A stretch of 38,917 nt of DNA. Origin: Frankiales bacterium. GTDB lineage: Bacteria; Actinomycetota; Actinomycetes; JAFAQI01. A program made the position numbers and the translations under genes. Below, piece by piece: positions 32,118 to 33,404 of the stretch (the first letter of the stretch is position 1; every line of letters begins with the position of its first letter). The stretch covers positions 1 to 38,917 of the forward strand of contig JAICXJ010000029.1 in assembly GCA_025980465.1 (NCBI GenBank), read 5' to 3'. The notes below the pieces were generated by a model that had not been told where the DNA came from, did no database searches, and was given only the letters and a program-made list of their open reading frames with translations.

Positions 32118-32669
32118 ATGGCGAAACCACTTGAGGGCAAGACCGTCGCGTTTCTGGTCGCAACGGAAGGCATCGAGCAGGTTGAGCTGACCGAGTCCTG
32201 GAAAGCGGTTGAGGGCGCCGGTGGCAAACCGTCGCTGGTCTCGACCGAAGCCGGTACGGTCCAGGCTTTCAACCATCTCGACAAGGCGGACACGTTCGAC
32301 GTCGACGCGGTCGTCGGTGAGACTTCTGTCGACGCCTACGACGGGCTGGTGCTGCCTGGCGGAGTGGCCAACCCCGACAGCTTGCGAATGCACTCTGGCG
32401 CGGTCGCGTTCGCCAAGGGGTTCTTCGATGCGGGCAAGCCGGTGGCGGTGATCTGCCACGGTCCCTGGACGCTGGTCGAGGCCGGTGTCGTGCGCGATCG
32501 CACCCTGACCAGCTGGCCCAGCGTGAAGACCGACATCGTCAACGCCGGCGGAACCTGGGTCGACGAAGAGGTCGTCGTGTGCACCGCCGGTCCGAACACC
32601 TTGATCAGCAGCCGCAAGCCCGACGACCTGAAGGCCTTCTGCCAAGAGCTGGTCGACCAGCTCGCCTAG
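32118..32669 (+). CDS. DJ-1/PfpI-family protein
   Basis: The 183-residue protein has the DJ-1/PfpI fold: GLVLPGG near residue 76 and the nucleophile elbow AVICHGP with C113 and H114, plus an acidic residue (E17 or E20) near the N-terminus. Family members include deglycase/chaperone and peptidase-like stress proteins; the closest group by sequence (ICHGPWTLVEAGVV, TSWPSVKTDIVNAGG) is the YhbO/PfpI type linked to stress survival. A GGGAG ribosome-binding site lies 7 nt before the ATG, so unlike many neighbours it uses a leadered message. Exact activity unknown. Confidence 0.88.
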   Translation: MAKPLEGKTVAFLVATEGIEQVELTESWKAVEGAGGKPSLVSTEAGTVQAFNHLDKADTFDVDAVVGETSVDAYDGLVLPGGVANPDSLRMHSGAVAFAKGFFDAGKPVAVICHGPWTLVEAGVVRDRTLTSWPSVKTDIVNAGGTWVDEEVVVCTAGPNTLISSRKPDDLKAFCQELVDQLA

Positions 32670-32693
32670 TCCATCAACTCGCGAGAGTCACAG

Positions 32694-32767
32694 TGCCCCG
32701 GGTCGGACTCGAACCGACACTGAATGGGTTTTGAATCCATCTTCTCTACCAATTGGAATACCGGGGC
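32694..32767 (-). tRNA. tRNA with CAA anticodon (Leu codon UUG), short variable arm
   Basis: The 74-nt minus-strand cloverleaf has a 7-bp acceptor (GCCCCGG/CCGGGGC) with A73, a T-arm GTCGG-TTCGAGT-CCGAC, a D-loop with AATTGGTAGA and an anticodon loop TTCAAAA. The anticodon CAA reads Leu UUG. It departs from normal tRNA-Leu: the variable region is only 5 nt (TCAGT), the D-stem is a 3-bp TTC/GAA helix and pair 31:39 is A-C. CCA is not encoded. The anticodon and A73 favour Leu, but the short variable arm is unusual for that family. It may be a specialised or degenerate tRNA. Confidence 0.75.
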
Positions 32768-32781
32768 CAGGGCCGGCATCG

Positions 32782-32787
32782 AGTCTA
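32782..32787 (-). promoter_or_regulatory. -10 box for the tRNA gene
   Basis: TAGACT on the minus strand lies 14 nt before the tRNA 5' end, predicting a leader of about 8 nt to be trimmed by RNase P. It lies back to back with the pdtaR -10 box. Confidence 0.5.
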
Positions 32788-32806
32788 GGGAAATCGGTGG
32801 GCTGGG

Positions 32807-32812
32807 TAGTCT
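32807..32812 (+). promoter_or_regulatory. -10 box of leaderless-type promoter for the ANTAR regulator
   Basis: TAGTCT is followed by 7 nt and GTG 32820. It selects this GTG over the ATG at 32832. Confidence 0.5.
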
Positions 32813-32819
32813 GCGGGCC

Positions 32820-33404
32820 GTGAGTTCTCCGATGCCTCGTCGCGTTCTCATCGCAGAGGATGAGGCGCTGATTCGGATGGATCTCAAGGAGATGCTCGAG
32901 GAAGAGGGCTACCAGGTCGTTGCCGAAGCGGCCGACGGGCAGCAGGCCATCGACCTCGCCCGGGAGCACAACCCTGACGTCGTGATTCTCGACGTAAAGA
33001 TGCCGGTGCTCGACGGCATTTCGGCAGCCGAGCAAATCACGGCCGATGCGATCGCGCCGATCGTGATGCTGACTGCGTTCAGCCAACGCGAGCTCGTTGA
33101 ACGGGCGGTCAGCGCCGGTGCCATGGCCTACGTCGTCAAGCCCTTCGGCAAGGCCGACCTGCTGCCCACGATCGAAGTGGCGGTCAGCCGCCATCAGCAG
33201 ATGCGGGCATTGAGCGATGAGGTCGCGGACCTCGCCGAGCGCCTGGACACCCGAAAGCTGATCGATCGTGCCAAGTCGAGGCTGCAGACCGAGCAGGGCA
33301 TGACCGAGCCGGAGGCGTTTCGCTGGATCCAGAAGACGGCGATGGACGGGCGGTCGTCGATGCGCGCAGTGGCCGAAGCCGTTCTCGCTGTCGGGACCGG
33401 CTGA
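32820..33404 (+). CDS. pdtaR: PdtaR-like response regulator with ANTAR RNA-binding domain
   Basis: The 194-residue protein has a receiver domain (about 5-125) with acidic pocket E13/D14, phosphoacceptor D58 in VVILDVKMP, the MLTAFS threonine/serine and K in VKPFGK. A coiled linker and a C-terminal ANTAR domain (about 132-188) follow, which in this family binds paired RNA hairpins to prevent transcription termination. It is the orthologue-type partner of the PdtaS histidine kinase, which is not in this window. It is expressed divergently from the tRNA. The downstream gap before the GNAT gene is strongly structured. Confidence 0.92.
   Translation: MSSPMPRRVLIAEDEALIRMDLKEMLEEEGYQVVAEAADGQQAIDLAREHNPDVVILDVKMPVLDGISAAEQITADAIAPIVMLTAFSQRELVERAVSAGAMAYVVKPFGKADLLPTIEVAVSRHQQMRALSDEVADLAERLDTRKLIDRAKSRLQTEQGMTEPEAFRWIQKTAMDGRSSMRAVAEAVLAVGTG

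Follow-up and report, generated by a model that had tools for sequence, protein, structure and literature searches.

Alternative short and long forms of tRNA-Leu(CAA) beside pdtaR in Actinomycetota, and a putative homing endonuclease gene linked to them

The textbook leucine tRNA has a long variable arm. The window (the whole analyzed stretch of 38,917 nucleotides, from the Frankiales genome G000) carries a gene that joins a leucine anticodon to a body without such an arm, which raises the question of what kind of tRNA it encodes and how this form came to occupy its place. The initial annotation proposed a specialised UUG-reading tRNA, a misacylated type or a decaying gene, to be checked with ARAGORN, by covariance score and by a search for orthologues beside pdtaR. 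The reading considered likely here is that the gene encodes a functional leucine tRNA reading UUG, and that short and long forms of this tRNA are swapped as a block beside pdtaR, most likely by homing.

Anatomy and leucine identity of the window tRNA

A single tRNA gene was detected in the window by ARAGORN, which called Leu with anticodon CAA on the minus strand (32767..32693) at the very site that had been proposed. The Rfam tRNA model RF00005 matched 32767..32694 of the same strand with 52.8 bits (gathering threshold 29). The coordinates of the initial annotation (32694-32767) are correct, and the strand, which it did not give, is minus. Numbering by position recovered all of the anatomy described there (CAA, A73, a 5-nt variable region, a 3-bp D-stem and the A31.C39 mismatch), and the oddity to which it drew attention, a leucine anticodon on a type I body, is genuine. 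The features of the locus are presented in Table 1.

Table 1. Features of the tRNA-Leu(CAA) locus in the window
Feature	Position	Strand	Basis
Type I tRNA-Leu(CAA), 74 nt	32694..32767	-	ARAGORN, Rfam RF00005, numbering, covariation
Anticodon CAA within loop UUCAAAA	32731..32733	-	ARAGORN, Rfam
Variable region UCAGU, 5 nt; U48 opposite A15	32719..32723	-	Position numbering
Leucine-type D-arm, 3-bp stem UUC/GAA, loop CAAUUGGUAGA	32742..32758	-	Position numbering
A31 (32736) to C39 (32728), mismatched last anticodon-stem pair	32728..32736	-	Position numbering
Intergenic region, divergent tRNA / pdtaR	32768..32831	.	Sequence
pdtaR, response regulator + ANTAR (ATG start assumed; alternative GTG at 32820)	32832..33404	+	Pfam PF00072 + PF03861
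DJ-1/PfpI family gene, ends 24 nt from tRNA 3' end	32118..32669	+	Pfam PF01965

The D-stem is formed by the pairs U10-A25, U11-A24 and C12-G23, with C13.A22 unpaired, and the D-arm loop contains C13, A14, A15, G18, G19, A20a and A22. The discriminator A73 is followed by C-T-G, hence the 3' CCA is not encoded. Upstream of the gene a -10-like TAGACT was noticed by eye; a promoter and terminator scan returned 0 sites for the tRNA, i.e. no promoter of strict consensus. The DJ-1/PfpI gene fills the flank in which relatives may carry a homing-endonuclease-like gene (see below). On the other side, the ANTAR neighbour reported previously was confirmed by the two Pfam domains of the adjoining gene, and the only tie found between the tRNA and this protein is their common intergenic region.

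With 5 nt, the variable region falls short of the at least 10 nt that define class II (type II) tRNAs. Nevertheless, every tRNA-Leu identity mark that could be tested is kept: A73, A15-U48, G18G19, A20a and the 3-bp D-stem with unpaired A22. The short D-stem, which had been listed as an oddity, is in fact the leucine D-arm itself. Among the 40 distinct tRNAs of G000, a D-loop ending in GG[CT]AGA together with a non-pairing A22 was found only in the four leucine tRNAs (short CAA and UAG, long GAG and CAG), all of which have A15-U48 and A73. The second short one, with anticodon UAG (L030; G000:C50:46722-46794), has the same type I leucine core.

The leucine determinants of E. coli, as given in the excerpted text of PMC9976931, are A15-U48, G18G19, A20a and A73; this list does not contain the long arm. 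Since the leucine marks are kept, the E. coli determinants do not include the long arm and G000 shows one LeuRS editing-domain match, the host bacterial LeuRS should, by the published E. coli identity rules, charge the window tRNA with leucine. Compared with bacterial type II tRNA-Leu, the window tRNA has the same anticodon, discriminator, A15-U48, G18G19, A20a and D-stem with unpaired A22, but differs in its 5-nt variable region and at positions 9 and 13, which are A and C instead of G and G. The animal mitochondrial tRNA-Leu(UUR) also lacks the long arm and is leucylated by its LeuRS (PMC9976931, same excerpt), whereas the window tRNA lies on a bacterial chromosome and has a regular cloverleaf; the likeness implies no descent.

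No other CAA gene was found among the 42 tRNA-model matches in G000, and for this reason the window tRNA looks like the ordinary UUG reader. The proposal of a specialised UUG-reading tRNA is therefore right as regards UUG, and too strong as regards specialisation. UUG had also been called rare. It accounts for 71 of the 823 leucine codons (8.6%) in 16 window ORFs, ten of which were chosen by length and position and have no family match; the 71 codons include 14 in gltB and 10 in polA, and the statement holds only in part. In six Streptomyces genomes there is likewise one CAA gene each, according to the excerpt of PMC4932002.

No Leu(UAA) gene was found among the tRNAs of the 95% complete G000 draft. 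This gap is not informative: tRNA-His is also missing from the 40 distinct tRNAs, which deprives the draft of value as evidence on this point, and a long Leu(UAA) is present in G004 and G001, both near relatives.

It is very improbable that leucine is not the amino acid charged onto the window tRNA (through misacylation or an isotype switch), or that this tRNA acts outside the ribosome in connection with the ANTAR regulator. The missing arm and an RNA-binding regulator as neighbour are all that speaks for this; against it stand the leucine marks, all kept where tested, the use of UUG in core genes of G000, where no other CAA gene was found, and the fact that the long form, an ordinary leucine tRNA, holds the same place in relatives. 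The suggestion of a misacylated type, in particular, is not supported, given the identity marks.

Decay of the gene, the third proposal, is extremely improbable. The A31.C39 mismatch would fit it, as would the modest Rfam score (37th of the 42 matches in G000), but the long Leu and the Ser tRNAs of the same genome also score only 51.7-55.2 bits, and the gene is conserved in many families. In an alignment of 24 short CAA tRNAs, 11 of the 20 predicted pairs have changed on both sides with pairing kept. The mismatch itself is found again in several families, in 11 of the 46 distinct short CAA tRNAs (0/16 in long CAA). Thus the structure and conservation that a tRNA pseudogene loses are both present. 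The 31-39 pair of short CAA tRNAs is also C.U in 6 of the 46 distinct sequences, and no mismatch was seen here in 78 short UAA tRNAs.

Distribution of short leucine tRNAs and the two forms beside pdtaR

DNA similarity searches with the window tRNA gave matches at E<=0.01 in 71 of 99 relatives, many of them partial. The best 30 loci (own locus included) were all called short Leu by ARAGORN (26 CAA, 4 UAA); these first relatives were picked by similarity to the window tRNA, and their counts do not represent a random sample. A pattern for short Leu(UUR), with one mismatch allowed, was found in 108 of 396 genomes of the phylum, its reversed control matching about 19 genomes, and 29 of 30 loci drawn from the pattern matches were called Leu and short. 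For named genomes, the matches listed comprise 81 sites in 80 loci, all called Leu (58 UAA, 23 CAA). The taxa among the matches listed include Streptomyces, Salinispora, Bifidobacterium, Nocardia, Gordonia, Mycobacterium and Planktophila, and 7 of these 80 loci (L111, L125, L129, L133, L156, L157 and L180) are from outside Actinomycetota. Short leucine tRNAs with UAA, CAA or UAG anticodons are widespread in Actinomycetota.

Short Leu(UAA) was commoner in the scans than short Leu(CAA) and occupies other chromosomal places, without pdtaR (instances are L039, L045, L046, L047 and 58 of the 81 sites in L102-L181, among the matches listed). In L180 (Microcoleus), several leucine tRNAs with short variable regions lie close together, as in a tRNA array.

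In the open-licence literature, no description was found of chromosomal short Leu(CAA) tRNAs or of a Leu-tRNA-linked endonuclease in actinobacteria. The excerpt of PMC11541572 states that tRNA-Leu-2, -3 and -5 of M. tuberculosis have long loops, which hints that its other leucine tRNAs may lack them. A short variable loop has been reported for an actinobacterial tRNA-Leu(UAG) encoded in a Mycobacterium tRNA cluster (PMC6582537, in part). According to the same part of that source, the tRNA is an additional isoacceptor in a cluster with an HNH endonuclease gene, whereas the window tRNA is the only CAA gene found and has a conserved place.

This place is beside pdtaR. The gene was present in 50 of the 55 short CAA loci scored (37 divergent, 13 in the same direction), which belong to several families, and a conserved place beside pdtaR is thereby supported. 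Long Leu(CAA) also adjoins pdtaR: 18 regions with long Leu(UUR) were taken from relatives (16 CAA, 2 UAA), and pdtaR was present in 14 of the 16 long CAA loci scored, always divergent (in L228 it is cut by the locus end). Among the 99 relatives, 47 have a short CAA gene, 22 a long one and none has both; the 30 without a match reflect a search pattern that misses other D-loops. The raw count of long CAA was 25/99. Three genomes (G032, G064 and G094) were removed by hand, their "variable regions" of 10, 30 and 29 nt being read as parts of other tRNAs, and three further long-CAA rows were discarded because of poor anticodon stems.

Both forms occur even in the family of the window genome (short in G000, G003, G004, G005, G006, G008 and G011; long in G007 and G010). 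On a tree of 64 pdtaR proteins, 12 changes of form are needed (shuffled mean 12.8), at least 6 of them required by the starred branches. The tree is that of a single short gene, and support is weak for most branches of the pdtaR trees. The window tRNA is one of two alternative forms, type I short and type II long, found at one place.

Exchange of a small block

The two forms differ in more than the arm. Among 46 distinct short CAA sequences, A73, A9 and the C13.A22 combination are invariant (46/46 each), with A15-U48 in 43 and a GGNAGA loop in 44; all 16 distinct long CAA sequences have G9, G13.A22 and A73. Since the core thus changes together with the arm (A9/C13 in 46/46 short, G9/G13 in 16/16 long), the switch is a replacement and not a truncation. 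In-place truncation, in which the long arm would have been repeatedly lost and regained by small indels in a vertically inherited gene, is improbable. The identical place, anticodon and leucine D-loop of the two forms are in its favor, but it does not predict the linked changes at positions 9 and 13, a long-type core with a short arm occurs in none of the 62 distinct CAA sequences, and the flanks upstream and downstream change as well.

These flanking changes were seen in comparisons of close species. Between loci of the same type, homology is mostly continuous through the tRNA. Between loci of opposite types, it breaks off between some tens and about 175 nt upstream of the tRNA and returns 163-920 nt after the tRNA start, or not within the locus. 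The pair analyzed in detail, L287 (long) and L292 (short), is 93-99% identical as far as position -100 relative to the tRNA, 81% at -100..-50, and 42-60% from -50 to +540, a segment spanning the tRNA and its near flanks. Beyond +540 identity is a mosaic of 68-93% up to +1100 (86% at +960..+1100), and then 96-97%. In this pair of relatives the tRNA and endonuclease segment is divergent between near-identical flanks, as in a co-conversion tract. Genomes G094 and G027 share 91% identity until 78 nt upstream of the tRNA, and from there on they are unlike. By sequence comparison, these data demonstrate that the forms are exchanged by swapping of a small block consisting of the gene's own putative promoter region, the tRNA and the near 3' flank.

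Some loci depart from this pattern. L288 and L290, of opposite types, gave a single BLAST alignment over the whole locus (83%), with no step at that resolution; L032 and L040 are of the same type, yet differ by a downstream DJ-1 gene. In G094 (L249, 2337-13063), about 10.7 kb separate the short tRNA from the return of homology, compared with about 0.9 kb in the long-type sister genome.

A putative homing endonuclease gene and the driver of the exchange

In many relatives an ORF of about 250 aa, on the same strand as the tRNA, starts 40-115 nt 3' of Leu(CAA). In an alignment of ten copies, an N-terminal HTH, a CxxC and a pair of LAGLIDADG-like motifs are common to all; the motifs are of the LLGxYLGDG and RGLxHSDG types, and their aspartates (D74 and D173) are invariant in 10/10 rows. 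The AlphaFold2 model (pLDDT 91.4) has a LAGLIDADG fold, with I-AniI, I-Tsp061I and others as top PDB matches (E about 1e-6). Profile libraries were less informative: in Pfam the best match to PF14528 reached 22.4 bits (cut-off 22.5) and one HTH match, in one of four proteins, exceeded its cut-off; NCBIfam gave no match above cut-off for four proteins; and PHROGs gave one weak match, for one of three. A search of phage and plasmid records with one query protein yielded no match at 1e-5. WhiA is a LAGLIDADG-derived transcription factor, not known to be catalytic, in which the HTH/LAGLIDADG order is reversed. It appears among the fold matches of the endonuclease-like protein (ranks 28 and 31) and has the same HTH plus LAGLIDADG make-up, but the protein described here has its HTH at the N-terminus and keeps both motif aspartates in 10/10 rows.

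The gene was present in 13 of 75 scorable CAA loci (8/60 short, 5/15 long) and in 0 of 102 UAA loci (Fisher p 7e-6). A profile search of the genomes of the 99 relatives identified 16 with a match, 13 of them beside Leu(CAA); because the copies used to build the profile had first been noticed beside CAA, these counts do not come from a random sample. The other three matches comprise one beside Leu(UAG) on the opposite strand (L264, in G015), a fragment near Trp/Gly tRNAs and one at a contig end. The same search gave no match in G000, and the window locus thus lacks the endonuclease gene of an intronless homing cassette. Loci of the endonuclease-like family are L033, L041, L055, L108, L121, L188, L220, L221, L231-L233, L261-L263 and L269-L294.

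The gene is frequent in the genus of G029, called Streptomyces-like because one of its loci (L055, L232) falls among named Streptomyces in the pdtaR tree. There, 108 of 150 genomes have a match (about 88 a full-length frame without stops, 20 broken or partial). The median dN/dS of 257 pairs with dS<1 is 0.33, and therefore the gene has been under constraint. From this genus a 32-locus set was assembled (the 30 best-scoring plus two named loci), in all of which Leu(CAA) lies upstream of the endonuclease-like gene. The tRNA type requires 3 changes on the endonuclease tree, a value reached in 0 of 500 shuffles, and 7 changes on the pdtaR DNA tree, reached in 283 of 500. For 15 mixed loci from several families, at least 4 changes of type must be placed on the endonuclease tree (shuffled mean 4.9), and mean endonuclease identity is 51.0% between loci of the same type vs 50.1% between different types; the proteins of L041 (short) and L220 (long) are 74% identical. 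Apparent co-transfer of tRNA form and endonuclease-like gene is supported in the genus of G029, and not beyond it.

Intronless homing by free-standing endonucleases is a mechanism treated in PMC3984707 (seen in excerpt). The cases of phage T4 SegB and the T4 tRNA region resemble the loci described here in that an endonuclease gene adjoins a tRNA gene and co-inheritance is suggested. They differ in that the present loci are on bacterial chromosomes, the fold is LAGLIDADG, a single tRNA with an allele-dependent structural type is involved, and the endonuclease is putative and missing from the window.

In the favored reading, the pdtaR locus carries either a short or a long Leu(CAA) allele, replaced as a small block that in many relatives also includes the putative LAGLIDADG homing endonuclease gene 3' of the tRNA. 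Intronless homing with co-conversion of the tRNA would be the most likely driver, because the block holds the endonuclease-like gene and because, in one genus, the tRNA type follows the tree of this gene and not that of pdtaR. The window represents a short allele that lacks the endonuclease gene. The absence of the gene from G000 and from 62 of the 75 scorable CAA loci counts against homing as the agent at the window itself.

The same 62 loci, of either type, also fit an ordinary polymorphism, in which homologous recombination through conserved flanks swaps the alleles and the endonuclease-like gene is a linked passenger; so does the observation that beyond one genus the type does not follow the endonuclease tree. 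This explanation is possible, if rather unlikely. Ordinary tracts could end anywhere, whereas the two ends observed here are about 90 nt upstream of the tRNA and within the endonuclease gene, with near-identical flanks, and 13 of the 16 genome-wide matches of the endonuclease-like family are beside Leu(CAA).

A more elaborate variant of homing, "cleave and rescue", is rather unlikely: the endonuclease would cut the only UUG-reading tRNA gene of the chromosome, and the cassette would supply a rebuilt tRNA of the other type that resists cutting. On this view the type I body would serve as a recoded antidote, with the anticodon and leucine identity kept and the cut site lost, and the window would carry the allele remaining after loss of the endonuclease gene. 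That the tRNA swap protects against the endonuclease is speculative.

With or without such protection, short leucine tRNAs are widespread in a large bacterial phylum, and at this locus the short Leu(CAA) replaces the long one, which offers a natural experiment on the arm requirements of LeuRS, tRNA processing, modification and the ribosome. A probably essential tRNA appears to be repeatedly replaced as a block, and in many genomes the replacement is linked to the homing-endonuclease-like gene. If homing is the driver, a selfish gene would here be rewriting its host's decoding set, of which there are few examples.

Intact, broken and empty endonuclease loci are all found within one genus. In L289 (G513:C1:2578967-2580538), one short Leu(CAA) is followed by two endonuclease-like copies in tandem, the second of which is the best copy.
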